Source: Nitrospira sp.
GTDB lineage: Bacteria; Nitrospirota; Nitrospiria; Nitrospirales; Nitrospiraceae
Direction of reading: 5' to 3'
Assembly (NCBI GenBank): GCA_035968315.1
Contig: JAVYIN010000006.1
Location: 62,001 to 126,000, forward strand
DNA: 64,000 nucleotides
Numbering within the stretch: the first letter of the stretch is position 1; the number at the start of each line of letters is the position of its first letter. Made by a program: the position numbers and the translations under genes. This document shows, one piece after another, positions 37,567 to 64,000 of this stretch. The notes under the pieces are model-generated. The model was given only the letters and a program-made list of their open reading frames with translations, was not told where the DNA came from and did not search any database.

Positions 37567-37574
37567 GCCGTCTC

Positions 37575-38937: not shown

Positions 38938-38938
38938 T

Positions 38939-39838
38939 TCATCCGACTTCCGTTTCCCGCGCCACCGTCATGGCATCGGTCGGGCAGACTTCGACGCAGT
39001 CGAGGCAGCCTTTGCAGTGCGGATAGTAGATGGCGGGCTTGCCGTCCGGCTTGATCGTGATCGCGCCCTCCGGGCAATTGGCAAAGCAGAGCCAGCACCC
39101 GTTGCACAGGTCCGGACGCAGGACCGGGCGGAAGGTCCGCCATCCGCTCACGGAACGGATCGCGGAATTGGGACCGGCCGTGATGCTGGCGGTTCCCCTG
39201 GTGGGTGGCTCATACGTCGGCGTGCGAAGCGTGGCCGGCGCCGCCGGTTGCCGGGAGGCCGATTCGATAGCCACGATCTGCACCAGCTCGTAACAGCGGA
39301 ATGCCACAGCTTGATTGCGCTCGATGACGGCAGCGGCCAGCCCGAGCTCGGCCAGCTCCCGTGCGATGGCCTCGCGAAGGGAGTCCTGTTTCAGCCCGGC
39401 CAGCCGTCCGGCCACGGCACCAAGCAACGCGCTGATCGCGCCCCGCTTGCCAATCTGCTGCATGGCGATGCCGGTCAGATCCAGGGTCGTGAGCCGGCCC
39501 GGAATCGGGACCTCGGCACGGAGTCGCTCGCCCGTGAGCGGTGAGTTCACAAAGATGGCCGTTCGCTCCTCCACACCTTCGAGTACGCGGGCGGATGGAT
39601 CACGAATGAGCGACGCATCGGCAATGACGACGAGATCCGGCCTGGCAATCAGGCCCCGCTCGCGAATCGGCTCGTTGGCAATCCGCGTATAGGCGGCCAC
39701 CGGCGCCCCGCGACGCTCGGCCCCGTAAATCGGCGAGTCCTGCGCCACGAACCCTTCCAGAAACGCCGCCGTGCCCAGAATGCGGCTGGCGGTCTTCGCG
39801 CCCTGCCCCCCTCGGCCATGGAAGCGGATGGCGATCAC
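38939..39838 (-). CDS. 2-oxoacid:ferredoxin oxidoreductase, fused gamma-delta subunit
   Basis: 299 residues combining a gamma domain (1-185; GRGGQGAKTASRIL, and AERRGAPVAAYTRI) with a C-terminal delta-type ferredoxin domain (240-299) holding two [4Fe-4S] clusters: C245/248/251/255 and C275/278/281/285, each C-x2-C-x2-C-x3-C-P. The linker of about 50 residues is Pro/Thr-rich. Separate gamma and delta subunits are common; here they are fused. It passes electrons from the TPP site to ferredoxin. Second gene of the operon, 9 bases after the YtxH gene. Confidence 0.9.
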   Translation of the reverse strand: MIAIRFHGRGGQGAKTASRILGTAAFLEGFVAQDSPIYGAERRGAPVAAYTRIANEPIRERGLIARPDLVVIADASLIRDPSARVLEGVEERTAIFVNSPLTGERLRAEVPIPGRLTTLDLTGIAMQQIGKRGAISALLGAVAGRLAGLKQDSLREAIARELAELGLAAAVIERNQAVAFRCYELVQIVAIESASRQPAAPATLRTPTYEPPTRGTASITAGPNSAIRSVSGWRTFRPVLRPDLCNGCWLCFANCPEGAITIKPDGKPAIYYPHCKGCLDCVEVCPTDAMTVARETEVG

Positions 39839-45785: not shown

Positions 45786-47372
45786 TTACAAATCGTTACC
45801 GGCATACGAGAGATTGAAGCTTTTGTTGATGAGCGGAAAATCGGGAATGATGTTTCCCACCACCGCCCACTGGATGGCGGGCCAGTTCGCGAATGACGGG
45901 TCCCGTACCTTGCAGCGATGAATCCCTCCGTCTTCCCCGGCCATCACGAAGGAGAGAATTTCTCCCCGCCACCCTTCCACGGCCGAGATGGCCCATTCGC
46001 CAGCACGCGGCGAGTGATTCGGCGCAGCAGTGAGCGGGCCGTCCGGGATCGTTCGGCAAATCTCGCGGATCAGGCGGATCGATTCGTGGATCTCATCCAT
46101 GCGCACGCGCACACGCGCCCGGACATCTCCGTATCGGTAGCACGCAACGTTGACGGGCAATTCGTCGTAGGCCGCAAACGGCCGGTCGCGGCGGACATCC
46201 TGATCGAGCCCCGAGGCCCGGCCCACCACGCCGACAACCCCATGATCCCAGGCAATGCGTTCCGTCAGCACCCCGGTGGTTTCCAGACGATCCGTGAGCG
46301 AGGCATTCGCAGCGATTATCGCCTCAAGCTCGGAAAAGTCCTGTTCGATCCGGCTCACCTCGTCCACCGTGTCCGCGAGCAGCGTTCGCTCAACATCCTG
46401 GGCCACCCCGCCGACACAGAGAACGCCGCGCAGGAATCGCGATCCGGCCAGCCGGTCATTGAGCTGCATGACGCGTTCTTTCATACGGCTGCAGTGGGCA
46501 TGGGGCAGCGCATAGGCCGTATCGTTACAGATGGCGCCGACGTCGCCGAGATGATTGTGCAACCGCTCCAACTCCAGAAAGAACGAGCGCAGATAACGCG
46601 CGCGGCGCGGCGCGGTGAGCTGCATCAGCGTCTCGACCGCCTGGCAATAGGCAAGGCCATGCCCCACGGTGGTATCTCCCGAGATGCGCTCGGCCAGCGG
46701 CACAGCGGCCGTCAGCCGCTGTTGTTCAAAAAGCTTTTCGCCCCCTCGGTGTTTCCAGAAGTGGCGCACTTCGAGTTGCAGAATCGGTTCGCCGGCGACA
46801 GAAAAGCGGAAGTGTCCCGGCTCAATGATGCCGGCATGGATCGGCCCGACCGGAATTTCAAACACGCCTTCGCCGTCGATACGGCGAAACCGATATTCCC
46901 CCTGCTGCCGCCCCATGACGGCATCCCAGGCAAAGTCTTTTTTCAGCGGGTGCGCGCCCTTTGGCCAATGCTCGTGCCGGATCAAGCGGCGGAGATCCGG
47001 GTGCCCGTGCGGGATGAGGCCGAACAGATCCCGGATTTCCCGTTCGTACCACTGCGCCGCATGCACAGAGGGCGTGATCGACGGAAACAGACGCTCCTGC
47101 CCGGTGAGCTCCAGTGTCAGCAGAATCCAGGGCTGGCGGGATTCCTGCGCGAACAGATACTGAATGTCATAGGTCTCCGATCCGGCGGAGTGAGCGACGG
47201 CGAACAACAGCGCAAGGCGGCAGTGCAAGGTCTGATGGAGCAATCGGACGAGTCCCGGCAGCTGCGCCTGGTCCGGGCGATATCGCAGCAGATCGCCGCC
47301 GGCTGACGCGTCCGGCCTTAGGCCGGGAAACGTTTCATGAACCAGCTGTTCAACCGATGGACGATCCGGCAT
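45786..47372 (-). CDS. hyfG: Hydrogenase-4-like large subunit (NuoCD-like) lacking NiFe ligands
   Basis: 528 residues: an N-terminal NuoC-like domain (about 1-150; WYEREIRDLFGLIPHGHPDLRRLI) and a NuoD/HycE-like domain. In true NiFe subunits the N-terminal ligand motif is R-x-C-G-x-C; here the same place reads RISGDTTVGH (SGDT at 231-234). The C-terminal D-P-C-x2-C motif is also missing, the protein ending FNLSYAGNDL. It therefore cannot bind NiFe and is not a hydrogenase; it probably forms a quinone or other redox site as in complex I. Gene order and 14-base spacing to hyfI support one complex. Confidence 0.92.
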   Translation of the reverse strand: MPDRPSVEQLVHETFPGLRPDASAGGDLLRYRPDQAQLPGLVRLLHQTLHCRLALLFAVAHSAGSETYDIQYLFAQESRQPWILLTLELTGQERLFPSITPSVHAAQWYEREIRDLFGLIPHGHPDLRRLIRHEHWPKGAHPLKKDFAWDAVMGRQQGEYRFRRIDGEGVFEIPVGPIHAGIIEPGHFRFSVAGEPILQLEVRHFWKHRGGEKLFEQQRLTAAVPLAERISGDTTVGHGLAYCQAVETLMQLTAPRRARYLRSFFLELERLHNHLGDVGAICNDTAYALPHAHCSRMKERVMQLNDRLAGSRFLRGVLCVGGVAQDVERTLLADTVDEVSRIEQDFSELEAIIAANASLTDRLETTGVLTERIAWDHGVVGVVGRASGLDQDVRRDRPFAAYDELPVNVACYRYGDVRARVRVRMDEIHESIRLIREICRTIPDGPLTAAPNHSPRAGEWAISAVEGWRGEILSFVMAGEDGGIHRCKVRDPSFANWPAIQWAVVGNIIPDFPLINKSFNLSYAGNDL

Positions 47373-47387
47373 CGCGGCCTCCCAATT

Positions 47388-48902
47388 CTAGCGCGCCACC
47401 AACATGGCAGAGGCGGTTTCGAGAAGCTGGTGCAACGGAAGCGGCAGCACCCAACAGAACCCTACGAGTACCGCCGCCAGCAGGATGAGCGCCAGGTGCC
47501 CCGCAGACCATGGCTCTCCCTGCACGACCCCTTGCGGGGCCGTTCCCCAGACCATGCCGGTAATTCGAAACAGCAAACCGGCGAAGGCCACCAGGCCACA
47601 GAGCAGCAGGATCACCACCAGACCTTTCGTTCCCGGCTGCCCCCACTCTCCCGGCAGCCCGGCTGTCCCGAGCGCGGTGACAATCTGCATCTCGCTGGCA
47701 AAAAGCGAAAACGGCGGCAATGCCGCCAAGGCCAATCCGGCGACAAGCAGCGCCAGCGCAGATCCGGGCAGGGCCGTGACCAGCCCCCGCACTTCGCCGA
47801 TCTCCACCGATTTATACCGCCGGTGAATGTTGCCGGCCGCAAAGAACGCCAGGGACTTCGCGCAGGCATGATTCACCAGATGGAACAGCCCGCCGAAGGT
47901 GCCGAGGGGACCGCCGACGCCGAATCCCACCATCGCCAGCCCCATGTGTTCAATGCTGGAATAGGCCAGCATCCGCTTGTAGTTGTGCTGCAGGAGCATA
48001 AAGAACGCGGCGATGGCAAAGGACACGAGTCCGAACAACGCCAGCAAGCCGCCGGTGAATTCGGGAGAGACCGCCTGATCGACAATCCCCCTGCTCCGCA
48101 GAATCGCATAGACCGCGACCGTTTCCAGGACGCCCGCCAGCATCGCCGCAACCGGGGCGGGCGCTTCCGTGTAGGCATCGGGCAGCCAGCTATGCATGGG
48201 CACGAGCCCGACCTTGGTGCCGTATCCGACAAACAGGAAGACGAACGCCAGTTTCAATATGTGAGGATCCAGTTGCGCGGCCACCTGCTGAAGCTGAGTG
48301 ATGTTCAGCGCTGAACTGACGTCGCCTAAGACGCGCAGAGAGGAATAGTACATCAGCACCACGCCGAACAGCGCCAGCGAGATGCCGACGGAACAGAGAA
48401 TCAAATATTTCCATCCGGCCTCCAGTGACTCGCGCCGGCGCCAGAACGCAATGAGAAACGTCGTGGCCAGGGTCGTCGCTTCGATCGCCACCCATTGCAC
48501 GCCGAGGCTGTTGGCGGCGGTTGCCAGAACCATGGCGAAGAGAAACATATGGAAGAGGAAAAAGAACAGATTGAGCCGGTTGGGCGCAATCACGCCGCGC
48601 GCCACCTGATCGTCCATGTAGGAGCGCATATACAACGAACAGGCGAGGCCGACGAGGCCGATAATGAACAAAATCACCGAAGAGAGGGCATCGATATAGA
48701 CGATCTCGCCGAGGGCGGTGAGCGAGCCCTGCGCCAAGACGATTCGCCCGATCGCGCACTCAGCCAGGACCAGAGCGCCCATGCTCGTGAGGTTGACGAG
48801 GTGAAGCCGGCGCGACGAGGAAATGAGCAGACTCAGCCCGCCGGCCACCAGCGGCGCGATGAGGAGCAGGCTGACGGCGAGTGTGGCGGTATCCCCGGTC
48901 AT
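47388..48902 (-). CDS. hyfF: Hydrogenase-4-type antiporter-like membrane subunit (NuoN-like)
   Basis: A 504-residue integral membrane protein with about 13-14 helices of the proton-conducting transporter family. Typical elements are the TM5-region Glu (WVAIEATTLATTFLIAF), VPMHSWLPDAYTEAPAPVAAMLAG and YKRMLAYSSIEHMGLAMVGFG. It is one of two proton-pumping subunits of the complex (with HyfB). Its ATG overlaps the stop of hyfE by 4 bases, indicating coupled translation. Confidence 0.93.
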   Translation of the reverse strand: MTGDTATLAVSLLLIAPLVAGGLSLLISSSRRLHLVNLTSMGALVLAECAIGRIVLAQGSLTALGEIVYIDALSSVILFIIGLVGLACSLYMRSYMDDQVARGVIAPNRLNLFFFLFHMFLFAMVLATAANSLGVQWVAIEATTLATTFLIAFWRRRESLEAGWKYLILCSVGISLALFGVVLMYYSSLRVLGDVSSALNITQLQQVAAQLDPHILKLAFVFLFVGYGTKVGLVPMHSWLPDAYTEAPAPVAAMLAGVLETVAVYAILRSRGIVDQAVSPEFTGGLLALFGLVSFAIAAFFMLLQHNYKRMLAYSSIEHMGLAMVGFGVGGPLGTFGGLFHLVNHACAKSLAFFAAGNIHRRYKSVEIGEVRGLVTALPGSALALLVAGLALAALPPFSLFASEMQIVTALGTAGLPGEWGQPGTKGLVVILLLCGLVAFAGLLFRITGMVWGTAPQGVVQGEPWSAGHLALILLAAVLVGFCWVLPLPLHQLLETASAMLVAR

Positions 48903-49567
48903 TCCTTCAACTCGCTGAGACGGGTGGTGTCCACGCTGTCGAACGCGTCTTGCAACCGATTGGTATAGATGCCGGCGATCAAGGCGGCGACCAACACGTC
49001 GAAGAACACGCCCAGTTCCACGATCAACGGCATGCCGTAGGTCGCGGCGGTCGCCCCCAAGAAGAGGCCATTCTCCATGACGAGGAAGGCGATCATCTGG
49101 GTGACGGCCTTTTGCCGTGCGATCATGGTGAAGAAGCCGATCAGGACGATGGCCAGGGCAATGGCCAGGGAGTCACGGGTCAAGAGGTGTCCAAACGGGA
49201 TGATGGGCTGCGTGATGAAAAAGGCGATCATCACCAGCACACCGCAGATGAGCAGGCTTGCCGGCACATTGACGTTCATGACCAGTTCGCGGGTGACGTT
49301 GAGCCGCTCGATCACGCGCCGCAGGACGCGAGGGATCACGATCACCTTGACCACCACGGTCAGGACGGCCGCAACGTAAATGTGCCTCGCGCCGGTAAGA
49401 AAGGCCACCAATGCCGCGGTCATGGCCAGAAACAACGATTGCAGCGCAAAGAGATCCACGCAGGCCGAGAGCCGGCGTTGGGCCACAATGGCGAAGCAGG
49501 TGAGGAGGAGCATCGCCGAACCCAGATCCACCAGTTGAGCGCTGATATGGGGAGTCAACCAGGACAC
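48899..49567 (-). CDS. hyfE: Hydrogenase-4-type membrane subunit (NuoK-like plus)
   Basis: 222 residues, almost all hydrophobic (about seven helices). The NuoK-like core includes the buried Glu of FLVMENGLFLGATAATYGMP. I start it at GTG 49567 (VSWLTPHISAQLVDLGS), which follows the hyfC stop by 2 bases and has GAGG a few bases upstream; the open frame reaches further but overlaps hyfC and is not hydrophobic there. It forms part of the proton path between HyfC and the antiporter subunits. Confidence 0.87.
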   Translation of the reverse strand: MSWLTPHISAQLVDLGSAMLLLTCFAIVAQRRLSACVDLFALQSLFLAMTAALVAFLTGARHIYVAAVLTVVVKVIVIPRVLRRVIERLNVTRELVMNVNVPASLLICGVLVMIAFFITQPIIPFGHLLTRDSLAIALAIVLIGFFTMIARQKAVTQMIAFLVMENGLFLGATAATYGMPLIVELGVFFDVLVAALIAGIYTNRLQDAFDSVDTTRLSELKE

Positions 49568-49569
49568 CG

Positions 49570-50532
49570 TCAGCCTCGCAAAATGTAAAAGAACAACAAA
49601 CCGAGCAGCGCCAGGATGAAGGCGGCGCCGAGCAGGTCGGTGACACGGAAGAGACGCATTTTGGCGAACATGCACTCCATCGTGCCGATCACGACGGCCA
49701 GGCCGGCCACTTTCATGAGATAGACGGCCAATCCCACTGCGAGGGCCGCGGGAGTCAGCGCCGTCGCGATGCCCCAGGGCGCAAACACGTTGGCAATGAG
49801 CGTCAAAAACACCAGGAGCTTGATACCGGAGGCCCATTCGATAAGGGCCAGGTACCGGCCGGAATATTCCAGCACCATGGCCTCATGAATCATCGTGAGT
49901 TCGAGATGAGTCGCCGGATTGTCCACCGGGACACGGCTCGTTTCGGCGAGGGTCACGATAAAGAGCGCGGCCAGCGCCATCAAATGCGGGGGCGGATCGG
50001 TCACAATCCCTTCCATCAGCGCAGTCTTGTGAACGATCGTGCTGAGATTCGTGGAACCGGTGGTCAGCGCGATCGCGAAAATGGCCATGATCATCGCCGG
50101 TTCGGTCAGCGAGGCAATGATCGACTCACGGCTGCCCCCCATCCCGCCGAACGCGGAGCCGGCATCGAGTCCTGCCAGGATGAGGAAGAACGTGCCCAGC
50201 GCCAGCAGATAGACCAGTGCGATGATATTGCCCGCGAAATTGAGCGGCACCTGCGAGGCAAAGACCGGGACAAGCAGTCCGGCTGCCACTGTCGAGGCAA
50301 ACACGATGTACGGAGTGGCCGTAAAAATCCATGACGCGGTGCTGGAGACAACCGGCTGCTTGCGAAACAGTTTCGCGAGATCGGCGTAGGGCTGGAAGAG
50401 GCTCGCCCCGCAGCGGCACTGAAACCGTGCCTTCACTTTTCGGATGAGGCCGACGATGCCGGGCGCGGCAGCCAGCATGACCAGAATCTGAGCCGCGGTG
50501 ACGACGATGGCTTGAAGAAGTGTGAGCGGCAC
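49570..50532 (-). CDS. hyfC: Hydrogenase-4-type membrane subunit (NuoH-like)
   Basis: 320 residues with about eight helices, the NuoH/HycD homologue that links the redox arm to the membrane arm. Conserved parts include QPYADLAKLFRKQPV near the N-terminus, and ETSRVPVDNPATHLELTMIHEAMVLEYSG, which carries the acidic residues of the quinone/proton junction. Located between hyfB and hyfE with very short gaps. Confidence 0.93.
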   Translation of the reverse strand: MPLTLLQAIVVTAAQILVMLAAAPGIVGLIRKVKARFQCRCGASLFQPYADLAKLFRKQPVVSSTASWIFTATPYIVFASTVAAGLLVPVFASQVPLNFAGNIIALVYLLALGTFFLILAGLDAGSAFGGMGGSRESIIASLTEPAMIMAIFAIALTTGSTNLSTIVHKTALMEGIVTDPPPHLMALAALFIVTLAETSRVPVDNPATHLELTMIHEAMVLEYSGRYLALIEWASGIKLLVFLTLIANVFAPWGIATALTPAALAVGLAVYLMKVAGLAVVIGTMECMFAKMRLFRVTDLLGAAFILALLGLLFFYILRG

Positions 50533-50547
50533 CGAATTTCACCTCCG

Positions 50548-52572
50548 TTACATCGCCAAGAGCAAGAGCACGACCAGCGTCACAAATATGTAGGCCAGGT
50601 AGAGATGGAGGCTCCCCGCTTGAATGATTCGCAGCCGGTCCGCCAGCCTGGAGACACACGCGACCACGGGCGCATAGAGATACCGCTCAAACACCGGCTC
50701 GATGTGAATGGCGAAACGCCGCCGCCTGGCAAAATACTTCGACTCTTCCAGGAATTCCGTTTCAAGCTCCACGGTCGGCTGATACACCGTGCTGAACACC
50801 CGCTTGATCGGCTGCACGAATCCTGTCGCCGTATATTCCATCCGGGCGGTCAACGGAAGACCGCAGCCCCAGGTTCTGCTGTACCGCTTCTTCGGAAAGC
50901 CGCCGAACAGAGCCACGAGGGCAAGGCCGAGCGCCCCCGCCGCGACAAGGATGAGGGCGAGCCCCGGGGAAGACAGGCTCGCATACTCCGCATCGACCGG
51001 CGTCAGCATCCACCCCTCAAGCCCCAGCATCCTCTCCGCGATGGACACGCCGGCCATCGGCGCGGTGATCCGGTCCAGCATCGGCACCACAACCATGGGG
51101 GCGAGTCCCAGCAGGATACAGACGGCCGCGAGCAGCCCCATTCCGATTCGCATCGGCCAAGGGACTTCTTCGGCATGACGCGCGTGGACACTGCGGGGCA
51201 GGGCCAGGAACGAGATGCCGAACGCCTTGGCAAAGCAAGCCAAGGCCAGCACTCCGGTGAGCGCCAGCATCGCAGCGGCCAGCGGGAGCATGAATTTCAT
51301 CAGCACCGAGGGGAGCTGAACGCTCATGAAGAGGCTTTGAAAGATCAGCCATTCGCTGACAAATCCATTCGTGGGCGGGAGTGCGGCAATGGAGACGGCG
51401 CCAATGAGAAAGAAGAGCCCGGTCCAAGGCATCCGGCGCAGCAGACCGCCATATTCCTCCATGTTCCGAGTGTGGGTCGCATAGAGCAGCGACCCCGCGC
51501 CCAGAAACAGCAAGGACTTGAACATGGCATGGTTGATCGTGTGATAGAGACCCGCCACCAGCCCGAGCGCAGCCAGCTCGCGGAGCCCATAACTTTGAAA
51601 GATCATCCCCGCGCCGATGCCAAGCAGTATGATCCCGATATTCTCGACGCTGTGATAGGCCAGGAGTCGCTTGAGATCATGCTCCATCAAGGCATACATG
51701 ACGCCGAGCCATGCGGAGACGGCGCCAAGCCCCAGCACGGTGAATCCCCACCACCAGGGAAACTCTCCGCCGAGAAAGTCGAACGTGACGCGCAGCAAGC
51801 CATAGATCGCCGTCTTGATCATGACGCCCGACATGAGGGCGGAGACATGCGACGGGGCGGCTGGATGGGCATACGGCAGCCACACGTGCAGCGGCACGAC
51901 ACCCGCCTTGGCACCGAAGCCAATCAGAGCGGCCAGAAAGGCGGCCGTCCGCAGGCTGCCGGATAACGGCTGCTCAGGATGACGGAACCCCTCGAACGAG
52001 AACGTCGCCCCCTGCTGGAAGCACACAAGAAACGCCACCGTGATGAACGCCGTGCCGACATGGGTCATGATCAGATAAAAGAAACTCGCATGCCGCACGT
52101 CCGGATCCGCATGATCCGTGGCGACAAGGAAATAGGACGCCAGGGACATCAGTTCCCAGAGAAGGAGAAACAAGAACCCGTTGTCCGCGAGCACCACCAG
52201 CGTCATGGAGCCGAGGAACGCATTGAAGAGCGATCCCAGTGCGGCCACTGACACCCGGCCCTGAAAAGACCGCAGATACCCGATGGCATAGATGGACGCG
52301 GCCAACCCGGCGAGAGAAACGGTGAACACAAAGAACGCCGCGAGGGCATCGAGCCGGAAGGCGAACGTCAGCAGAGGAATCGCCGAATTGATCGAGAGCC
52401 GCATCGGGACGGAGGCCGTGAGGCCAAGCAGGCCGAGAGCGACACCTGAGCCGGTTGCCAGGATGCCGCACACGCCTGCCGCGAGGCTCTGGGCCTGCGG
52501 GCGCCGCAGGCAGAGCGGCAGCCCAATACCAGCCGCATAACAGGCCAGCAGCACCCACAATACGGTCAGCAT
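50548..52572 (-). CDS. hyfB: Hydrogenase-4-type antiporter-like membrane subunit (NuoL-like)
   Basis: A 674-residue proton-translocating subunit with the antiporter core (LLLWELMSLASYFLVAT, then VPLHVWLPYAHPAAPSHVSALMSGVMIKTAIYG and HDLKRLLAYHSVENIGIILLG) and a hydrophilic C-terminal extension typical of HyfB. The start at ATG 52572 gives an N-terminal membrane helix (MLTVLWVLLACYAAGIG); a GTG at 52620 has GGGGAGGG immediately before it but would add a hydrophilic leader. First membrane gene of the operon. Confidence 0.92.
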   Translation of the reverse strand: MLTVLWVLLACYAAGIGLPLCLRRPQAQSLAAGVCGILATGSGVALGLLGLTASVPMRLSINSAIPLLTFAFRLDALAAFFVFTVSLAGLAASIYAIGYLRSFQGRVSVAALGSLFNAFLGSMTLVVLADNGFLFLLLWELMSLASYFLVATDHADPDVRHASFFYLIMTHVGTAFITVAFLVCFQQGATFSFEGFRHPEQPLSGSLRTAAFLAALIGFGAKAGVVPLHVWLPYAHPAAPSHVSALMSGVMIKTAIYGLLRVTFDFLGGEFPWWWGFTVLGLGAVSAWLGVMYALMEHDLKRLLAYHSVENIGIILLGIGAGMIFQSYGLRELAALGLVAGLYHTINHAMFKSLLFLGAGSLLYATHTRNMEEYGGLLRRMPWTGLFFLIGAVSIAALPPTNGFVSEWLIFQSLFMSVQLPSVLMKFMLPLAAAMLALTGVLALACFAKAFGISFLALPRSVHARHAEEVPWPMRIGMGLLAAVCILLGLAPMVVVPMLDRITAPMAGVSIAERMLGLEGWMLTPVDAEYASLSSPGLALILVAAGALGLALVALFGGFPKKRYSRTWGCGLPLTARMEYTATGFVQPIKRVFSTVYQPTVELETEFLEESKYFARRRRFAIHIEPVFERYLYAPVVACVSRLADRLRIIQAGSLHLYLAYIFVTLVVLLLLAM

Positions 52573-52629
52573 CGCGTCATCCGATCGGCCAGCCCCTGTC
52601 TTCGACAGCCACGCGCGCACCCCTCCCCA

Positions 52630-56140: not shown

Positions 56141-56674
56141 CTATCGGCCACAACCTTCGCCTTCGCAGCCGCCCATTCCGCCGCCTGGTCCCATCATGGG
56201 TCCCCCGCCTCTTCCATGGCCCATCATGCCGGGGACATGGTCTCCGGCAAAGCTCCGCTCATATTGGATAATCGTCCAGATTTCGTCGTCGGTGAGCTGG
56301 TCTCCAAACCCGATCATGGACGTCCCGGGTGAGCCATATTTGATCACCCAGAAGATTTCCCCCTCGGTGCGGTGGCGCCAGAAACCGTGATGCTGGAAAT
56401 TTCTCGGCGAGGGATCGAGGCCCGCCGCCGCCATGCCATTGCCCGACCCGTCCCTCCCATGGCAATTGAAGCAGGTCCCCTTGCCATTGTAGAGGGCCTT
56501 GCCCTTCTCGACGGTCTCCGGTGAGTCCGGCAAGGGGCTGGCCAGCGCGCGCGCTTCAGCCAGCGTGCCGGCCGGCACGCGCGGCTGCATGACATGGCGC
56601 TCATCCGCCCATAAGGCCGATGCAGTCAACACACCGGCTGCGGCAAGAGCGGTCAGCATACGAGAGGGGCGCAT
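56141..56674 (-). CDS. Monoheme cytochrome c with Gly/Met-rich tail
   Basis: 177 residues. The signal peptide (about 1-23, ending ALWAD) is followed by the heme site CFNCH and a Met ligand candidate in the GTSMIGFGDQLTDDEIWTIIQY segment. The C-terminus is a 30-residue Gly/Met/His-rich tail (MMGHGRGGGPMMGPGGGMGG) ending in two cysteines, which could bind metal such as copper. It follows PPK2 by 20 bases and is probably co-transcribed with it. Confidence 0.87.
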   Translation of the reverse strand: MRPSRMLTALAAAGVLTASALWADERHVMQPRVPAGTLAEARALASPLPDSPETVEKGKALYNGKGTCFNCHGRDGSGNGMAAAGLDPSPRNFQHHGFWRHRTEGEIFWVIKYGSPGTSMIGFGDQLTDDEIWTIIQYERSFAGDHVPGMMGHGRGGGPMMGPGGGMGGCEGEGCGR

Positions 56675-56694: not shown

Positions 56695-57750
56695 CTAGAA
56701 ATCGAGTTCGACCATCTTGCGATGGAACCGCGTGATCACATTCGGATCCGGTGTCAGCCGGACCTGGGCCGTGTCCTTCCCTTTATACGGCAGGAGATTC
56801 AGCACATGGCGCAGGCTTTCCAGACGGGCCGCCTGCTTATCGTTCGCTTTGACGATAATCCAGGGGCTGAACGTCGTATGGGTCTTGCTGAACATTTCTT
56901 CTTTGTAGCGGGTGTACGAGTCCCAGAGCTCTTGCGCCTTCTCATCGACGGGACTCAGCTTCCATTGTTTGAGCGGATTCTGGCGTCGTGCCTCAAAACG
57001 CTTGGCCTGCTCCTCTTTGGATATGGAAAACCAGAACTTGATGATCGTCACGCCGTCTTCGTAGAGCATATGCTCGAATTCCGTAACCTGCTGCAGAAAC
57101 CGCTGATGTTCCTTCTTGCTGCAAAATCCCATCACCGGCTCGACCACCGCGCGGTTGTACCAACTGCGGTCGAAGAAGACGATTTCCCCCTTATTGGGAA
57201 GCTGGCGGATATAGCGCTGGAAATACCACTGGCCTTTCTCTTCATCCGTCGGTTTCGGCAGTGCCACGACGCGCATTGCGCGAGGGTTCAGATGTTCCGT
57301 AAAGCGGCGAATCGTGCCGCCCTTCCCGGCGGCATCGCGTCCCTCGACGAGGATCGCAATCCGCTGCCCTTCGTTCTGAACCCATCGTTGCAGCCGCACC
57401 AGCTCCACTTGCAGCGCCCGCAGCTCCTGCTCATACAGCAAGGTCTTTCGGATCTCTTCAAGATCGACCTCCTTGCTCTTCAATAATTGCAGCAGCCCTT
57501 TCCGCGTATTAATGCGGCGAAGATCGTCTTCCGTCAGGGCAAGCGCCGCCTCTCCGCTCCGCACGGCGGCCATGGCGCTCTTTCCAGCCTTCCGCTGCCG
57601 GTAGCCGTCCCCTTCCCGCGGCACGACAGTCGGAATCGTTTCCAACTCATCGGCCAGAAGCTTGCCGTCACGTCCGGCAAGCGCCTCAGCCTCCGCGTGA
57701 GATTCTTGTCGGTCTTTGGTCTTGCCGGTCGATTCTTCGTCAGATGCCAT
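56695..57750 (-). CDS. ppk2: Polyphosphate kinase 2 (PPK2 family)
   Basis: A 351-residue cytosolic enzyme that transfers phosphate between polyphosphate and nucleoside diphosphates. One PPK2 domain is present: Walker A GRDAAGKGGT (137-146), lid-module arginines in FQRYIRQLP, Walker B-type FFDRSWYNRAVVEPVMGF, and the C-terminal KANDKQAARLESLRHVLNLL. A charged N-terminal extension of about 100 residues is typical of class I. ATG at 57750 is preceded by AAAGGAA at slightly long spacing; a GTG at 57771 overlaps the stop of the small upstream frame. Confidence 0.92.
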   Translation of the reverse strand: MASDEESTGKTKDRQESHAEAEALAGRDGKLLADELETIPTVVPREGDGYRQRKAGKSAMAAVRSGEAALALTEDDLRRINTRKGLLQLLKSKEVDLEEIRKTLLYEQELRALQVELVRLQRWVQNEGQRIAILVEGRDAAGKGGTIRRFTEHLNPRAMRVVALPKPTDEEKGQWYFQRYIRQLPNKGEIVFFDRSWYNRAVVEPVMGFCSKKEHQRFLQQVTEFEHMLYEDGVTIIKFWFSISKEEQAKRFEARRQNPLKQWKLSPVDEKAQELWDSYTRYKEEMFSKTHTTFSPWIIVKANDKQAARLESLRHVLNLLPYKGKDTAQVRLTPDPNVITRFHRKMVELDF

Positions 57751-57767
57751 AGCGCTACCGTTTCCTT

Positions 57768-57899
57768 TCACAGAAACAACAGACCATCAGAATGCCACGT
57801 TCCTGCCGCGTTGATCCACTTCTTTGCTGGAATCCGGCATGCCCATGCCCTCGTCAGGTCGTCGGCACCCCGACTGCCGAAAATGGTAAATGTGGCCAT
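57768..57899 (-). CDS. Possible 43-residue small protein or leader peptide upstream of ppk2
   Basis: A short frame starting MATFTIFGSRGADDL with an excellent ribosome binding site (GGAGGAG, 6 bases before the ATG). Its stop overlaps a GTG in frame with ppk2 (GTGA), an arrangement that would allow translational coupling. The peptide has no recognisable domain. It might be a leader peptide controlling ppk2, or a chance frame. Confidence 0.35.
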   Translation of the reverse strand: MATFTIFGSRGADDLTRAWACRIPAKKWINAAGTWHSDGLLFL

Positions 57900-58025: not shown

Positions 58026-59036
58026 CTACTTCGGTCCCTTGAACGTCGCTTTCACATAGGCCATGACATCGGCCACGCCCTGCTGCCCGATGGTCAACCC
58101 CCAATAGGGCATGTTGGCAGACTTGCCCATCGCCGCCCCGCCATGGTTGATCATATTGTAGAGATACTCGGTCGGGACTTCGCTGAAGTTGATATTGGCA
58201 TGAATGGCTGGCTTGGGCTCCAGGGTGGCCGCAGCCGGACCGTCGCCCTTGCCGGTCGCCCCATGGCATTGCATACAATACTCTTTATAGATCACTTTCC
58301 CTCGCCCCACGCTGGCTTTCCCAAACTCGGGTGCCGTCCAGGGTTCATAGTACGTGAAGTCCGGCACACCCTGAACAGCGAGAAATCCAAGAACCGCGCG
58401 CAATTGAGGCTCGGTCGCATCGGCCAAGAACTCGCCGCTGTGCGGCACGAAATCTTGCGGATTCAACCCAAACCGGAACAGCCAGTCCATGTTGTACCGT
58501 TGGCCGGCTTTCTCCAATGCCGCGCTCTGTTGCCCGCCGATGAGTGTCCCGTTTTCCTCAATCGTGTGACAGCCAAGGCAGGCATGCGCCTTATAGGCCA
58601 TGCCGCCGAAGGCCGCTTCGAACTTGGTCACCTTCGTCACATCATACGCGCCGACTTTCACCCGGGGATCCTTGTTGTTCTTCTCGAAGTAGTCGGCGAT
58701 GGCGCCGGCCTCCGCTTCGGTGACCACGGGATGTTTCACCGGACCTTCGCTGAGATCCCAGCGATACCCTTTCGCATAGAGCGGCGCCTCCTTCCCGGTC
58801 AGCCATCGGATCAGCCAGGGACGCTGGTACTTGCTGCCGGCCCAAATGAGATCGGGTGCGCGCAGGTTGAATCGCGAGTCGGCTTGCCCTTCCAATCGAT
58901 GGCATTGGACACAGGCCTGCTGGATCAGCTCCTTCGCCCGGGGCTGATCGGCTCCGAACAACAGACGCGGAGCGGACATCAACCCCACCAGCGTCAACAG
59001 CGCCCCGCCGGCCAGCATCCCTTTCCTCAAACTCAT
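58026..59036 (-). CDS. Triheme cytochrome c
   Basis: A 336-residue periplasmic protein with a signal peptide (about 1-28, ending LLFGAD) and three heme sites: C42-V-Q-C45-H, C153-L-G-C156-H and C254-M-Q-C257-H. Each belongs to its own class I-like domain. AAAGGAG precedes the ATG at 59036. It is the last gene of the sulfur-linked operon, 37 bases after the diheme gene, and probably carries electrons away from the sulfite-oxidase-like enzyme. Confidence 0.9.
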   Translation of the reverse strand: MSLRKGMLAGGALLTLVGLMSAPRLLFGADQPRAKELIQQACVQCHRLEGQADSRFNLRAPDLIWAGSKYQRPWLIRWLTGKEAPLYAKGYRWDLSEGPVKHPVVTEAEAGAIADYFEKNNKDPRVKVGAYDVTKVTKFEAAFGGMAYKAHACLGCHTIEENGTLIGGQQSAALEKAGQRYNMDWLFRFGLNPQDFVPHSGEFLADATEPQLRAVLGFLAVQGVPDFTYYEPWTAPEFGKASVGRGKVIYKEYCMQCHGATGKGDGPAAATLEPKPAIHANINFSEVPTEYLYNMINHGGAAMGKSANMPYWGLTIGQQGVADVMAYVKATFKGPK

Positions 59037-59073
59037 AACCGCTCCTTTCGGCTGTGGTGAGCACGGCTCACCG

Positions 59074-59703
59074 TTACTTCGATAACAACCAGGCCTGCAC
59101 ATCCGCAATATCCTGATGACTCAGCACGGAACCCCAGGCGGGCATGGGCCCGCGCCCGTGGAGCACCGTTTCCCAAAATAGATCGTCATGTTTGAGAATA
59201 GGATTCTTCGCCAGCTTCGGCCCCATCCCGCCGGTTGCACCGGCTCCATGGCACGCCTGGCAGTTGTGCTCGAAAATACCGGCGCCTCTGTCAGCCAGGC
59301 CGACGAGCGGCCCTTCCGCCACCGGTTCCTGCGTGAGCGGCTCCGCCTTCCTCAATTCCTGATCGAGCGGGGCCAGATGATCCGGCGCGCCCGGATGATA
59401 CCGCGCCGACAGATACCGCACGAGGAGCGCGGCTTCATCCTCGGACATCTCCGCGCCCCAATGTTTCATTTTGTCGACCGTCGCCAGCCAGCGCTCTCTG
59501 GGCAACCGCTGTTGAGACACGAGATCCGGGCTATGGCACACGGAACAGCGCGCGATAATCAATCCCTCGGCCCGTGGCGCCAACGCGGCGCTCACCGATG
59601 CCAGCTCGTCTTCTTGCGCCGACGTGACCACCGCCAGCCCGATGCACCCGAGGAGCAGCGCGAGCCCCACGGATCGAACACGAACGGCATCGTTTCGTTT
59701 CAC
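59074..59703 (-). CDS. Diheme cytochrome c
   Basis: 209 residues. The signal peptide ends near VVTSAQ, and the heme sites are C53-S-V-C56-H (followed by SPDLVSQQRLPRERW, a SorB-like pattern) and C148-Q-A-C151-H. The first domain resembles the cytochrome partners of bacterial sulfite dehydrogenases (SorB-like); the second resembles small class I cytochromes. It starts with GTG at 59703 inside a TTTCACG repeat, with GAGGCG upstream. It directly follows the sulfite oxidase gene, supporting an electron acceptor role. Confidence 0.87.
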   Translation of the reverse strand: MKRNDAVRVRSVGLALLLGCIGLAVVTSAQEDELASVSAALAPRAEGLIIARCSVCHSPDLVSQQRLPRERWLATVDKMKHWGAEMSEDEAALLVRYLSARYHPGAPDHLAPLDQELRKAEPLTQEPVAEGPLVGLADRGAGIFEHNCQACHGAGATGGMGPKLAKNPILKHDDLFWETVLHGRGPMPAWGSVLSHQDIADVQAWLLSK

Positions 59704-59724
59704 GTTTCACGCCTCACGTTTCAT
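59691..59724. repeat. TTTCACG-type tandem repeat at the sulfite oxidase/cytochrome junction
   Basis: The stretch CGTTTCGTTTCACGTTTCAC continues as GCCTCACGTTTCAT: four to five degenerate copies of a 7-base unit (TTTCACG). It spans the end of the sulfite oxidase gene and the GTG start of the diheme cytochrome gene. A similar array lies at 62462-62489. Confidence 0.6.
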
Positions 59725-60905
59725 GCGCCTGAGACCGTCACCGTCACGCGATCCCACCCGTTCCATAAAAACCCGCTGGGATTCCAGGGGCTGGTGTGGG
59801 GCTGCACCTCTCCGCCCGCATCCGTTGCGCGAGAGAGAATCGTCACCGAACCAGGCCCCTTGGGTTTCCACAGAAACTGCCATTGCCTCCAGGCATAGGG
59901 CTCGTCCTCACCGACCAGCCTCGCCTGCTCCCACGTCTGGCCTTCGTCAAACGACAGCTCCACGGCCGCGACGGGCGTCTCTCCGCTCCAGGCCACCCCC
60001 TGCACCGTCACCGGCCCCTGCCCGACTTGCGTCCCTTCTGGCGGTGAGGCAATGAGCGATTTCACCACCATCGCTTCCACGGGAACCATCGACGTGCCGG
60101 GCAGACCGGAGTTCGGCTGAATGGCCGTGACCGGCACACGATAGGCCGTCTGCATGTAGTAGCCCTTCGCTTCATCCGCCTGCACCGTGATGTCGGTCAG
60201 CCATTTGATGCAGGAATCCGCCATCCAGCCCGGCGTAATGACCCGCAGCGGGGCGCCGTGCAACAGCGGCAAGGGGCGCCCGTTCATCTCATAGGCGAGA
60301 AGCGTGTCCGGATGCAGGGCTTTCTCCAACGGAATACTGCGGATAAACAGCGGCACCGCTGCCACCACCGGCCGGTCGGCGCCTTGCAATTGGACATGCT
60401 TGGCCTGATGGCGGAGGCCGGCTTTGGCCAGCACATCCCGCAGCCGCACGCCGGTCCATTGCGCATTGCCGACCGCGCCCCGCTCCCATTGCACACCGGG
60501 GACTTTCGGACGATGAAAGGCCCGCCCATTGCCGCTGCATTGCACGACCGCCGTGATCGTCACCCGTTCGAACTGCGTGAGTTCCTTGAGCGTAAGCACC
60601 AACGGCTGCTCGATGAGCCCCCCGACACGGAGTCTCCAGTTGGCCTCGGCAATCAGCTCCGGCGCAGGCGGCCCAAAATGACTCCGCACAAAAAAACGAT
60701 GAGTGGGAGTGAGGAACGAGGTGAATTCGCGCACCGGCGTTTCGGCGTCATAGGGCCTGGTGACCCGTGCGATCAAGGGGCCGGACTCGTTGGATGACGG
60801 ATCGTTTCCGGCGGCTCGTGCCGCAACAGGACGATGGCTCACCATCGCACTCAGGCCAAGGCCTTGCAGGACCTTCCCCAGCCAGGCCCGCCGAGAGAGA
60901 CTCAT
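59721..60905 (-). CDS. Sulfite oxidase-family molybdenum enzyme (Tat-exported)
   Basis: A 394-residue periplasmic molybdopterin enzyme. The N-terminus has a Tat motif (SRRAWLGK) and signal (to about residue 32). The Mo-binding SUOX domain has the Mo-ligand Cys123 in VVQCSGNGR. The C-terminal Mo-co dimerisation domain includes VQGVAWSGETPVAAVELSFDEGQTW. Such enzymes oxidise sulfite to sulfate (SorA/SoxC type) and pass electrons to cytochrome c. The start at 60905 is set by the Tat signal and overlaps the OsmC stop by 4 bases. Sulfite as substrate is inferred from family and neighbours. Confidence 0.88.
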   Translation of the reverse strand: MSLSRRAWLGKVLQGLGLSAMVSHRPVAARAAGNDPSSNESGPLIARVTRPYDAETPVREFTSFLTPTHRFFVRSHFGPPAPELIAEANWRLRVGGLIEQPLVLTLKELTQFERVTITAVVQCSGNGRAFHRPKVPGVQWERGAVGNAQWTGVRLRDVLAKAGLRHQAKHVQLQGADRPVVAAVPLFIRSIPLEKALHPDTLLAYEMNGRPLPLLHGAPLRVITPGWMADSCIKWLTDITVQADEAKGYYMQTAYRVPVTAIQPNSGLPGTSMVPVEAMVVKSLIASPPEGTQVGQGPVTVQGVAWSGETPVAAVELSFDEGQTWEQARLVGEDEPYAWRQWQFLWKPKGPGSVTILSRATDAGGEVQPHTSPWNPSGFLWNGWDRVTVTVSGA

Positions 60906-61339
60906 AGCCCGGCCTTCCCTTCCGGCGGCTGGGGGAGCGCATGACCGTGCGGGTTCAACTTGATCGACACGTTCGGCGCCACGGCAACCGATTGATGGAC
61001 GGTGCAGCCATGCGCCACCTTTAACAGCCGCTCCTTTTGTTCCGGCGTAATGCGATGCGGCAGATGAATGGCCAAGGCGATCGCACCGACGCGATGCGGG
61101 CCTTCGGCCATCGTCCACTCGGCATCGACCGTCAAGCCGTCCCGGGAGATGTTGTGCCGTGCGCAGAATTGGCCGACGAAATACCCGACACAACTGGCCA
61201 CCGATCCGACAAACAGTTCAACAGGGCTCATCCCCGCATCGTGCCCGCCATCTTCAACCGGCTGATCGGTGATAATCCGATGCCGTCCGCTCGTGACGTC
61301 ATATCGCGTCCCGCCATGATAGGCCACCGTGAGCGTCAT
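60902..61339 (-). CDS. OsmC/Ohr-family protein
   Basis: 145 residues with the two reactive cysteines of the OsmC fold, Cys50 (GSVASCVGYF) and Cys112 (HGCTVHQS), on a central helix and a later loop. OsmC proteins reduce organic hydroperoxides, but homologues next to YeeE/YedE transporters probably handle sulfur or persulfide groups. Its ATG overlaps the stop of the transporter gene and its stop overlaps the start of the sulfite oxidase gene, so all three are translationally coupled. Confidence 0.88.
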   Translation of the reverse strand: MTLTVAYHGGTRYDVTSGRHRIITDQPVEDGGHDAGMSPVELFVGSVASCVGYFVGQFCARHNISRDGLTVDAEWTMAEGPHRVGAIALAIHLPHRITPEQKERLLKVAHGCTVHQSVAVAPNVSIKLNPHGHALPQPPEGKAGL

Positions 61340-61866
61340 CGCGCACCTCCCGGATCAGGAAGCCTGACCGCCAGCCAAAGACAAAGCGCACCCAGCGGAA
61401 CCGCCAGCATAACGCCCGGCATCCCGAATGATTCGTGAATGGTCACCGGCCCATACTGGCCGAGGGCCATCAACACCGTTTCCAAATCCGGAAACATGAA
61501 AGCAAACACCAGCGCGCCGAGCAACCCGCCAAAGACCGTCGCCCAGGCATCCGGTTTGCCTTCCGCCGCCGCGGCCAGCGCGGTGCCGGGACAATACCCT
61601 GTCACGGCAAAACCGACACCGAAGATCGCACCGGCCACCACCATTCCCGGGAGATACAAATCTTTCACTTTCATGTGGGCCAGTCCCAGCGCATCCAGAA
61701 GATGCACCCCGATCAACCCTACCCCGATCGCCGTCAGAATGACTTTCATGATGGTCATATCCTTGAGCCGCAACGCATTGGTAATTTTCGTATGGCTAGA
61801 GGCTCCCGACAATTGCAGCACGGCTCCGAAGGCGGCCCCCAACACCAATCCCAACAGCAGCTTCAT
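61336..61866 (-). CDS. Half-size YeeE/YedE sulfur transporter, subunit B (DUF6691-like)
   Basis: A 176-residue membrane protein with about five helices. The key pore motif is GYCPGTALAAAAEG (Cys92), the G-x-C-x2-G element of YeeE/TsuA thiosulfate transporters. It is half the length of TsuA and is paired with the preceding gene, which supplies the other half; such split pairs (PmpA/PmpB type) are known. The ATG at 61866 overlaps the preceding stop. It would import thiosulfate or another sulfur species. Confidence 0.87.
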   Translation of the reverse strand: MKLLLGLVLGAAFGAVLQLSGASSHTKITNALRLKDMTIMKVILTAIGVGLIGVHLLDALGLAHMKVKDLYLPGMVVAGAIFGVGFAVTGYCPGTALAAAAEGKPDAWATVFGGLLGALVFAFMFPDLETVLMALGQYGPVTIHESFGMPGVMLAVPLGALCLWLAVRLPDPGGAR

Positions 61867-62429
61867 TGCTTCCCCCAATCGCCATATAGCCATCGCGCCG
61901 TCAGGATCGCGCTGACAAAGAGCACCGCCGAAAAGACCAGCGAACTGACCGCAAGCTGAGATACGCCGCTGATCATGTGGCCGGACGTACAGCCTCCGCC
62001 GAATCGCGCACCGAACAGGAGCAAAAATCCCCCGATGCACGACCAGACCAGACGCCGCCCGGGAATCGGTCCAAACCGATGAGCCCACTCACCGGGCACC
62101 AGCCTAGTACTGAATCGCTTGGTGGCCCATGCAGCTAGAAAGGCCCCGATCGGAATGCCCAGCACAAAAAAGAACTCATAGGTCGCCAGCGTCCAGCCAC
62201 CTGCCGCCTCCGACAGGTAGGCGCTCTGGTCGGCGACGTCCGGCAGCACCTGATGCAGCAGCACCCCGTCCAAGACCACATACTGCGTCGAGACTCCGAT
62301 CGGCTGCACCAGCGCGACGGCCACGATCAGCACGAGACCGATCCCCAGCCCACCGGTCCACCAGGGAATGGCCGGAGCAGTCGTATGATCCGGTGAATCA
62401 GCCCTCTGGGGATTTGGGAAGTTGGTCAT
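61863..62429 (-). CDS. Half-size YeeE/YedE sulfur transporter, subunit A
   Basis: A 188-residue membrane protein with about five helices and the matching motif RFGGGCTSGHMISG (Cys147). The first 25 residues are hydrophilic. I start it at ATG 62429; a GTG five codons upstream is possible. Together with subunit B it would form a complete pore with one reactive cysteine per half, as expected for relay of thiosulfate sulfur. A short TTACGTC repeat array lies upstream. Confidence 0.87.
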   Translation of the reverse strand: MTNFPNPQRADSPDHTTAPAIPWWTGGLGIGLVLIVAVALVQPIGVSTQYVVLDGVLLHQVLPDVADQSAYLSEAAGGWTLATYEFFFVLGIPIGAFLAAWATKRFSTRLVPGEWAHRFGPIPGRRLVWSCIGGFLLLFGARFGGGCTSGHMISGVSQLAVSSLVFSAVLFVSAILTARWLYGDWGKQ

Positions 62430-62461
62430 CGTTCGCGCTTTCACTTCACCACGTCATCCTC

Positions 62462-62489
62462 TTACGTCTTACGTTTTACGTCTCACGCC
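62462..62489. repeat. TTACGTC-type tandem repeat between the TsdA-like and YeeE genes
   Basis: TTACGTC-TTACGTT (62462-62475) is followed by TTACGTC-TCACGCC (to 62489): four 7-base units with few mismatches. They abut the stop of the TsdA-like gene at 62490. Same unit length and location type as the 59691-59724 array. Confidence 0.65.
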
Positions 62490-63353
62490 CTAATACGGCA
62501 CATCCACCGGCTTCCCGCCCTTCGGCCAATCCTGCGCTTTGGCCGGGAAATCAGGACGCGGCTGCCCCAGGATAAATGCCGCCACATCAAACGCTTCGTC
62601 GTCGGTCACCGTCCATCCCCAACCGCGCGGCATATTTGCCTTGATAAACGACGCCGCCACACTCACACGCGCCATCCCTGCCGCGATATTATACGAACCC
62701 GGCCCCCATAGCGGCGGCGCGGCCATCGTCCCTTGTCCATCAGATCCATGGCAAAAGACACATTTCTTGGCAAAGACCGTCTTGCCGTTCACGGCATCCG
62801 GCGGCCGAGTAGCTGTGATGCGGGGAATCCCTCGCCAGGGAACAGCGCTTCCCTTCGGCACATTCTGTGACAGCCAATCGATATAAGCGACCACCGCCGC
62901 CAATTTCGAACTGTCGGGCGGCAAGGCTTTGCCGTTCAAACTGCGCTCAAAACACTCATTGATCCGATCGGCCAGACTCATCTGCCGATCTGCCCGAGCC
63001 CGGTATTCCGGATACAGCCGGCTGAGGCCCACAAAGGAGGCGGCATTCGGATTCAGCCCCGCATCGAGATGGCAATTGGTACAGTTCAGCTTGTTCCCCA
63101 CATAGGGCTGCCCGTATTCCTGCGTGTCGGCGACAATCTTGAAGCCCAACCGGATCTGCTCGCCGCGCTGGTCGCCCCGGATCGTCTCCGGAGACGGCGG
63201 GGCAAACAACGCATCGAACGCCGGTTCGTGTTTCTGCGAAGAATCATTGGACTCAGCCGCCTGCCCCACCCTCGGTGGAGGAATACACCCTGCGGCAACG
63301 CTTCCGGCGGCCGCCAACAGCAAACACCCCAGCGCAATACGGCGCATGACCAA
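62490..63353 (-). CDS. TsdA-like diheme cytochrome c lipoprotein (probable thiosulfate dehydrogenase)
   Basis: 287 residues. Lipobox SVAAGC (Cys23), then two class I cytochrome domains with heme sites C91-T-N-C94-H and C198-V-F-C201-H. The segment after the first heme (CHLDAGLNPNAASFVGLSRLYPEYRAR, then RINECFERSLNG) is the signature of TsdA, which oxidises thiosulfate to tetrathionate (or the reverse); Cys134 in INECF is in this conserved stretch. Heme ligation by Cys is a hallmark of TsdA active sites, but which Cys does this here cannot be told. It heads the sulfur gene run. Confidence 0.82.
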   Translation of the reverse strand: MVMRRIALGCLLLAAAGSVAAGCIPPPRVGQAAESNDSSQKHEPAFDALFAPPSPETIRGDQRGEQIRLGFKIVADTQEYGQPYVGNKLNCTNCHLDAGLNPNAASFVGLSRLYPEYRARADRQMSLADRINECFERSLNGKALPPDSSKLAAVVAYIDWLSQNVPKGSAVPWRGIPRITATRPPDAVNGKTVFAKKCVFCHGSDGQGTMAAPPLWGPGSYNIAAGMARVSVAASFIKANMPRGWGWTVTDDEAFDVAAFILGQPRPDFPAKAQDWPKGGKPVDVPY

Positions 63354-63357
63354 CCTC

Positions 63358-63576
63358 TTAATGTTTGGGACAGCAGCCCGTTGGACAGGTATTGATGCCC
63401 AGCACCGTCCACAAGGGGCAAAAACCGATGGCCCCTGTCACCAGCGCAATCGTACCCACCACGAATGCGATCCCCGTTCCCACCGGAGGCAACCCGGCAA
63501 ACGCGCCAACCCCCAGCGCCACAATCCCAACGACGATTCGGATAGGCCGTTCAATTCCTCCGACATTGCATGTCAT
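63358..63576 (-). CDS. DUF2892 small inner-membrane protein
   Basis: 72 residues beginning MTCNVGGIERPIRIVVG, with two hydrophobic helices separated by a short loop, the YgaP-tail-like DUF2892 layout often linked to rhodanese/sulfur proteins. It carries a cysteine near the N-terminus (Cys3) and a CPTGCCPKH end. It ends 4 bases before the TsdA-like gene, so it probably starts the sulfur operon. Confidence 0.8.
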   Translation of the reverse strand: MTCNVGGIERPIRIVVGIVALGVGAFAGLPPVGTGIAFVVGTIALVTGAIGFCPLWTVLGINTCPTGCCPKH

Positions 63577-63671: not shown

Positions 63672-64000
63672 TTAATCCTGCCGAAACGTTCGCACGTACG
63701 CCAGGACGTCCCAGATTTCATCATCGGACAACGCGGTGCTCCAGGCCCCCATCGCGGTATTGGGCTTGCCGTCATGAATGCGCTTGAACAAGCTGGCATC
63801 CAATCGCCGTTGAATCGCGTCCGAGGTGAGATCAGCCGGCTTGGGCACGAGCTGAAGACCCATCGCCCCTTTCCCATCGATTCCGTGGCACCGGATACAG
63901 GTATTGGTATAGATCTCTCGGCCCGTCACCGCATCACGTTGCGCCGCCGGCGCAGGGAGATCCTTCAACCCTCCACCGCCGCCGAACCCGGCTGAGATCA
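63672..64000 (-). CDS. Monoheme cytochrome c, 5' end cut by the window
   Basis: The C-terminal part of a cytochrome: heme site CIRCH and a likely Met ligand in NTAMGAWSTALSDDEIWDVLAYVR. The frame stays open to the window edge through a Gly-rich linker (AGFGGGGG), so the start and signal peptide lie outside. It lies 95 bases upstream of the DUF2892 gene on the same strand. Confidence 0.85.
   Translation of the reverse strand, partial: ISAGFGGGGGLKDLPAPAAQRDAVTGREIYTNTCIRCHGIDGKGAMGLQLVPKPADLTSDAIQRRLDASLFKRIHDGKPNTAMGAWSTALSDDEIWDVLAYVRTFRQD

Follow-up and report, generated by a model that had tools for sequence, protein, structure and literature searches.

TsdA- and SorA-type genes in one Nitrospira locus: a putative auxiliary entry for sulfur electrons

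Introduction

Could a Nitrospira draw electrons from reduced sulfur compounds beside those it takes from nitrite? This question is raised by a locus in the window, the whole stretch of 64,000 nucleotides analysed here (Nitrospira sp., assembly GCA_035968315.1, contig JAVYIN010000006.1, positions 62,001 to 126,000). Eight genes run here on the minus strand from 63576 down to 58026 and encode, in this order, a DUF2892 protein, a TsdA-like diheme cytochrome, two YeeE-type proteins (YeeE-A and YeeE-B), an OsmC protein, a SorA-type molybdenum enzyme, a diheme cytochrome and a triheme cytochrome. A sequence-only reading had described them as a compact sulfur module that takes up or exchanges thiosulfate or sulfane sulfur and oxidizes sulfite, which in a nitrifier would be an alternative electron source. 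We find that the genes are linked across Nitrospiraceae as two blocks and not as one unit, and that both enzymes carry the conserved residues expected of their families. The explanation towards which we lean, with modest confidence, is a periplasmic module by which electrons from thiosulfate and sulfite would enter the cytochrome c pool from the side, as an auxiliary source beside nitrite.

Parts of this inventory are on record. A putative SorAB or sulfite dehydrogenase has been recorded for N. marina (PMC8115632), for comammox and three closed Nitrospira genomes (PMC7078480) and for Nitrospina (PMC3578206). SorAB of other marine Nitrospirales is listed as a possible alternative energy source, with no phenotype linked to it (PMC10579370), and a comparative study from 2025 describes SorAB as largely restricted to lineage IV and mentions sulfur assimilation as a role of SorAB in Nitrospirales (PMC12342949). 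Despite this restriction, N. defluvii (L102) and N. moscoviensis (L109) each have a SorA orthologue and a SorB-like partner to it, which suggests that divergent SorA went uncounted in that study. Searching the openly licensed literature on TsdA or thiosulfate dehydrogenase in Nitrospira, we found no description of this locus; the sole nitrifier case of tsdA that we found is that of Lake Erie 'Ca. Nitrotoga' (PMC9239080). SorAB in Nitrospira is known, and the TsdA locus beside SorA appears to be new, as we found no paper on it.

Results

Two linked blocks

The eight same-strand genes are confirmed on the minus strand, with named families assigned by Pfam, and direct reading of the junctions bears out the three consecutive ATGA overlaps of four bases each (YeeE-A/YeeE-B, YeeE-B/OsmC and OsmC/SorA) that the sequence-only reading had pointed out. 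Among 147 Nitrospiraceae genomes, orthologues of TsdA occur in 99, of SorA in 71 and of YeeE-B in 26. SorA and TsdA are found together in 53 genomes and lie within 3 kb of each other in 48 of these, and YeeE-B is located at most 1.3 kb from TsdA in 25 of 26 genomes. This association exceeds chance, which would bring a single random pair of genes this close in a 3.7-Mb genome in about 0.1% of cases; as the genomes are related, the cases counted are not independent. The diheme gene adjoins SorA in all 40 SorA loci examined, and these loci also contain OsmC (35 loci) and the multiheme cytochrome (32 loci).

The complete arrangement recurs in N. moscoviensis (NZ_CP011801.1), where all eight genes follow in this order and are succeeded by polyphosphate kinase 2 (PPK2); DUF2892 is located about 2 kb upstream of TsdA there. 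N. defluvii (FP929003.1) has all genes but the YeeE pair, with DUF2892 further upstream. Genomes without SorA largely retain the order cytochrome c, DUF2892, TsdA, YeeE pair where present, OsmC and multiheme cytochrome, from which SorA and the diheme gene are gone. OsmC and the multiheme cytochrome persist without SorA and its diheme partner and, in several genera, without TsdA, which fits the expectation for shared components. In some genera (L060, L063, L065 and L072), SorA and the diheme gene are in turn separated from every other part of the locus.

Because SorA and the diheme gene are missing from SorA-less genomes while the remaining order is largely kept, we conclude that the locus consists of two linked blocks and not of one unit. 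The first is TsdA with the optional YeeE pair, the second is SorA with the diheme cytochrome, which is removable, and OsmC and the multiheme cytochrome are shared. A single indivisible eight-gene operon is rejected, as the blocks are gained or lost separately. What stands of the compact eight-gene module is the linkage across Nitrospiraceae; it has to be read as two blocks, with YeeE accessory to TsdA, and its gene order, complete in N. moscoviensis, breaks up into separable blocks among other Nitrospiraceae.

Beyond Nitrospirota, there are SorA relatives at 45–48% identity in Myxococcota, Planctomycetota and Acidobacteriota. A weakly similar diheme gene adjoins some of them, and none of the SorA loci examined there has the TsdA–OsmC context. 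TsdA relatives in the rest of the phylum reach at most 48% identity.

Two enzymes and their conserved residues

The TsdA-like protein (62490–63347, minus strand; PF21342, 2.4e-10) has TsdA of Allochromatium vinosum as its best solved relative (PDB 4wqc, E = 2.3e-57), with an alignment over residues 45–270 that covers both heme domains. Counted from the ATG at 63347, its CxxCH motifs are at 89 and 196, and the predicted ligands are Cys132 for heme 1 and Met239 for heme 2. The former is the Cys134 of the sequence-only reading, which had counted from a TTG start. Both ligands are kept without exception in the 27 aligned sequences and in all motif variants listed for 42 sequences. A cysteine at the end of the signal peptide is kept in 25 of the 27, and its conservation suggests that TsdA is a lipoprotein. 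With this homology and both ligands in place, a TsdA-type enzyme with conserved catalytic residues, as first proposed, is recognisable as a putative thiosulfate dehydrogenase/tetrathionate reductase.

For the molybdenum enzyme (59721–60905, minus strand; twin-arginine signal), the best NCBIfam model is SorA (7.7e-97, 324.5 bits), ahead of SorT (244 bits), SoxC (219 bits) and MsrP (43 bits). Its best solved relative is SorA of Starkeya novella (PDB 2blf, E = 1.9e-68, 234.6 bits), compared to 114.6 bits for nitrate reductase and 21.8 bits for YedY. In 41 sequences, the molybdenum ligand Cys123 as well as Arg74, His76 and Tyr255 are invariant, corresponding to Cys104, Arg55, His57 and Tyr236 of SorA, and so is the twin-arginine pair. 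Since the active-site residues are kept, the enzyme should work like SorA. The tree places the Nitrospiraceae sequences in a clade of their own (support 99/96) apart from the Proteobacteria clade that contains 2blf (100/100); the deep branch between the two is weak (88/84). Scores and tree rule out an MsrP/YedY or nitrate-reductase identity, and the SorA-type assignment with its catalytic residues is upheld. The same genome contains further sulfite-oxidase-family relatives, of which L002 and L003 were placed by score and tree; a fourth match is L004.

The adjoining diheme cytochrome (59074–59703, minus strand) matches NCBIfam SorB over residues 48–102 (E = 9.8e-13, 48 bits against a cut-off of 93) and Cytochrome_CBB3 over residues 137–206 (1.2e-21). 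It is thus a SorB-like N-terminal domain to which a second heme domain is fused.

One transporter in two halves

YeeE-B (61336–61866, minus strand; PF04143, 1.4e-16, profile positions 10–150) aligns to residues 4–143 of the transporter TsuA (PDB 6leo, E = 2e-9), and YeeE-A (61863–62429, minus strand; PF04143, 3.5e-22, profile positions 174–309) aligns to residues 258–326. Both halves score above the Pfam Sulf_transp cut-off. Cys92 of YeeE-B corresponds to TsuA Cys91 and Cys147 of YeeE-A to TsuA Cys293, each invariant in six of six sequences, and these two residues of TsuA are indispensable in S. thermophila (PMC11582611). For the third cysteine of TsuA, neither half has a counterpart that is fully conserved among the aligned sequences. 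A split of this kind has a precedent in PmpB and PmpA, which divide a transporter of this type into an N- and a C-terminal half (PMC11582611). What had been read as a split YeeE/YedE pair is indeed of the YeeE/TsuA type with both cysteines, and the pair is predicted to be the PmpB-like N-terminal and the PmpA-like C-terminal half of one single transporter, with one essential cysteine each. No TsuB partner adjoins the pair; TusA-family genes are found only elsewhere in the genome.

Cytochromes, flanking genes and source organism

The OsmC/Ohr-family protein (60902–61339, minus strand; PF02566, 2.7e-13) has three invariant cysteines, Cys50, Cys59 and Cys112 (35 of 35 sequences). With this, all cysteines that the sequence-only reading had named are present. 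Two hemes are counted in TsdA, two in the diheme and three in the triheme cytochrome (58026–59036, minus strand), for which the assignment follows from the heme-motif count (hemes at 42, 153 and 254) and from relatives. Relatives with or without SorA have a form with four hemes, for example L163:11622-13028. All nine SorA-less loci that could be assessed encode a multiheme protein with four hemes, as do about 20 of the loci with SorA; the three-heme form occurs only together with SorA, in 16 loci (Fisher p = 0.017, uncorrected for relatedness). The AlphaFold model of the triheme cytochrome has a mean pLDDT of 60.5, which is too poor for a fold search.

At the upstream end, the DUF2892/YgaP-like protein with two membrane helices (63358–63576, minus strand; PF11127, 1.5e-18) keeps Cys3, Cys53 and Cys64 in 27 of 27 aligned sequences each. 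The gene run extends past the eight genes on both sides. Upstream, a monoheme cytochrome c at 63672–64040 (Cytochrome_CBB3, 4.9e-14) adjoins DUF2892 and TsdA in relatives as well; on the minus strand it is covered by the window from 63672 to 64000, with its start codon at 64040 beyond the edge and the full open reading frame in L005. Further upstream, outside the window, follow a second OsmC, a BBP2 porin-like protein, a response regulator and a histidine kinase, these two called from reading translations, and a DsrE-family protein. DsrE-family genes resembling sulfur carriers are found upstream of the module here (L005:18701-19279) and downstream in a SorA-less relative (L162:13306-13665). 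On the other side, PPK2 (56695–57771, minus strand; TIGR03707, 9.8e-109, above cut-off) keeps its position downstream in relatives and is probably outside the sulfur function. A monoheme cytochrome c past PPK2 (56141–56674, minus strand; Cytochrome_CBB3, 1.7e-11) has a counterpart at the same place in the SorA-less relative (L162:14791-15348). An Rfam scan of the window gave no match.

The source assembly comprises 3.1 Mb in 11 contigs, and its relatives are Nitrospiraceae; judged by SorA, Nitrospira sp. UBA6493 is the closest of those with a name (89% identity). The source belongs to a nitrifier genus, in line with the supposition that it is a nitrifier. Within the assembly itself we found no match to the beta subunit of the type II dimethyl sulfoxide reductase family (TIGR03478), which would include the nitrite oxidoreductase (NXR) beta subunit, and no PF01568 molybdenum-enzyme frame longer than 946 amino acids. 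Of 36 good genomes in the genus, 28 have a beta-subunit match, among them the close relatives G070 and G132. Nitrifier status of the strain therefore rests on its relatives. As nxr is repeated in Nitrospira, loss from the assembly is the likely cause; the alternative is a strain without nitrite oxidation. The search for amoA matched none of the control genomes.

Reading the translations elsewhere in the window, we noted a row of hydrogenase-4/formate-hydrogenlyase-like membrane and large-subunit genes (45786–52620), clustered subunits of 2-oxoacid:ferredoxin oxidoreductase as expected for a reductive tricarboxylic acid cycle (36619–39838), and a BsuBI/PstI-like restriction endonuclease-like gene that comes after one resembling an adenine methyltransferase (30063–32491).

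Discussion

In the module that we favour, TsdA, tethered as a lipoprotein, would interconvert thiosulfate and tetrathionate at its cysteine-ligated heme, and SorA, exported by the twin-arginine route, would oxidize sulfite to sulfate and pass the electrons to its diheme partner. The tri- or tetraheme cytochrome may gather electrons from one or both enzymes and hand them to the cytochrome c pool and a terminal oxidase. The two YeeE halves are expected to form one inner-membrane channel for thiosulfate or sulfane sulfur. Inside the cell, TusA and rhodanese could accept the sulfur and release sulfite, possibly feeding SorA; one conceivable sulfite source is thiosulfate cleaved after import. Candidates for both are encoded elsewhere in the genome, with three TusA matches, two of them in free-standing frames of 86–89 amino acids, and rhodanese matches in four frames, one with two domains. 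In strains that bear it, the module would provide an auxiliary electron source and would not be a full pathway from thiosulfate to sulfate.

Several findings weigh against this reading. Forty-six of the 99 genomes with TsdA are without SorA and 18 of the 71 with SorA are without TsdA; therefore the two reactions need not form one pathway. The molybdenum enzyme falls short of the 600 bits that NCBIfam sets as the equivalog cut-off for SorA; proteobacterial members reach 676–703 bits. Whether TsdA oxidizes thiosulfate or reduces tetrathionate cannot be read from its sequence, and its KxNM heme-2 motif resembles that of the tetrathionate-reducing TsdA of Campylobacter jejuni. SoxB has no match in the whole assembly, which rules out a complete Sox pathway, and the cluster lacks a recognised tetrathionate-cleaving enzyme, so that nothing there makes sulfite from tetrathionate. 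Of the proposed uptake of thiosulfate or sulfane sulfur together with sulfite oxidation, the enzyme and transporter types stand, and a complete route from thiosulfate to sulfate does not. It is this gap between tetrathionate and sulfite that keeps our confidence in the energy reading modest and makes detoxification or assimilation of sulfur its main rival.

Detoxification or assimilation, with cytochrome c merely a disposal route for electrons, appears unlikely to us and is still the alternative that survives best. In E. coli, YeeE/TsuA proteins serve the nutritional uptake of thiosulfate (PMC11582611), OsmC belongs to an Ohr-type family, and the assimilatory role mentioned for Nitrospirales SorAB points the same way. 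SorA and YeeE are moreover patchy among closely related genomes, and TusA and rhodanese are present where SoxB is absent. However, TsdA makes or uses tetrathionate, which is no assimilation step, and the enzymes are accompanied by several dedicated multiheme cytochromes, beyond the needs of detoxification.

We consider it improbable that TsdA acts as a tetrathionate reductase under oxygen limitation, as an electron sink for the cytochrome pool like that of Campylobacter. The residue before the heme-2 methionine, Lys208 in A. vinosum, is Asn in nearly all TsdA sequences of Nitrospiraceae, as it is in C. jejuni TsdA, which reduces tetrathionate in vivo (PMC5146829). Yet the K208N variant of A. 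vinosum TsdA keeps the same low tetrathionate reductase activity as the wild type (PMC6879331), so the motif does not decide the direction and we reject this residue as a diagnostic. The neighbourhood with SorA in 48 genomes favours oxidation, because SorA is oxidative by family. Least probable of all are two metabolically uncoupled functions, TsdA(-YeeE) and SorA-diheme, which merely share a genomic spot and the OsmC–cytochrome pair: the one-sided genomes and the isolated SorA-diheme loci would agree with this, but the closeness of both blocks in nearly all genomes that have both, and their common OsmC and multiheme neighbours, would not.

Returning to the auxiliary electron source, a bolder version can be put forward tentatively, and we doubt it more than we believe it. 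Terrestrial Nitrospira, including the cultured nitrite oxidizers N. moscoviensis and N. defluvii, would be facultative sulfur oxidizers that convert thiosulfate to tetrathionate and sulfite to sulfate, with a lineage-specific OsmC–multiheme hub leading into the cytochrome c pool of nitrite oxidation. TsdA beside SorA, physically tied to a thiosulfate-type transporter, adds a definite second substrate, and with it a prediction open to existing cultures. If it holds true, nitrite oxidizers at oxic–anoxic interfaces such as biofilms, sludge and groundwater would join the thiosulfate/tetrathionate cycle, and the coupling of nitrification and sulfur in wastewater and aquifer models would have to be revised.

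Comparison with known systems

The closest known counterpart of the second block is SorAB of S. novella. Both share SorA homology across the whole chain, the molybdenum-ligating cysteine with the Arg, His and Tyr residues, the twin-arginine signal and an adjacent SorB-like heme domain. In contrast to S. novella, the Nitrospiraceae SorA belongs to a separate clade below the equivalog cut-off, its partner is diheme, with an extra cytochrome c domain beside the SorB-like one, and it is embedded with TsdA, OsmC and the tri- or tetraheme cytochrome.

The first block is comparable to TsdA of A. vinosum and C. jejuni in its two-domain diheme architecture, with a SoxA-like first domain and Cys/Met heme ligands. 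It differs from A. vinosum TsdA, and is like that of C. jejuni, in having Asn and not Lys beside the methionine. Unlike both, the Nitrospira protein is a probable lipoprotein with the split YeeE and a multiheme cytochrome adjacent and no TsdB fusion. Similar to TsuA, SoxT and PmpAB, the YeeE halves belong to the Sulf_transp family, match the halves of TsuA with equivalents of Cys91 and Cys293, and follow the PmpB/PmpA arrangement. Here, however, they are encoded by two overlapping genes, of which the one for the C-terminal half comes first, and they adjoin TsdA instead of sox, TsuB or pyrroloquinoline quinone (PQQ)-dehydrogenase genes.

The tsdA region of Lake Erie 'Ca. Nitrotoga' is alike in that it brings together, in a nitrite oxidizer, tsdA with cytochromes and genes for the transport of sulfur compounds, a likeness drawn from its description and not from sequence. 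That region belongs to a different phylum, is ecotype-specific and has no published link to SorA and OsmC (PMC9239080), whereas in Nitrospira these genes stand side by side.

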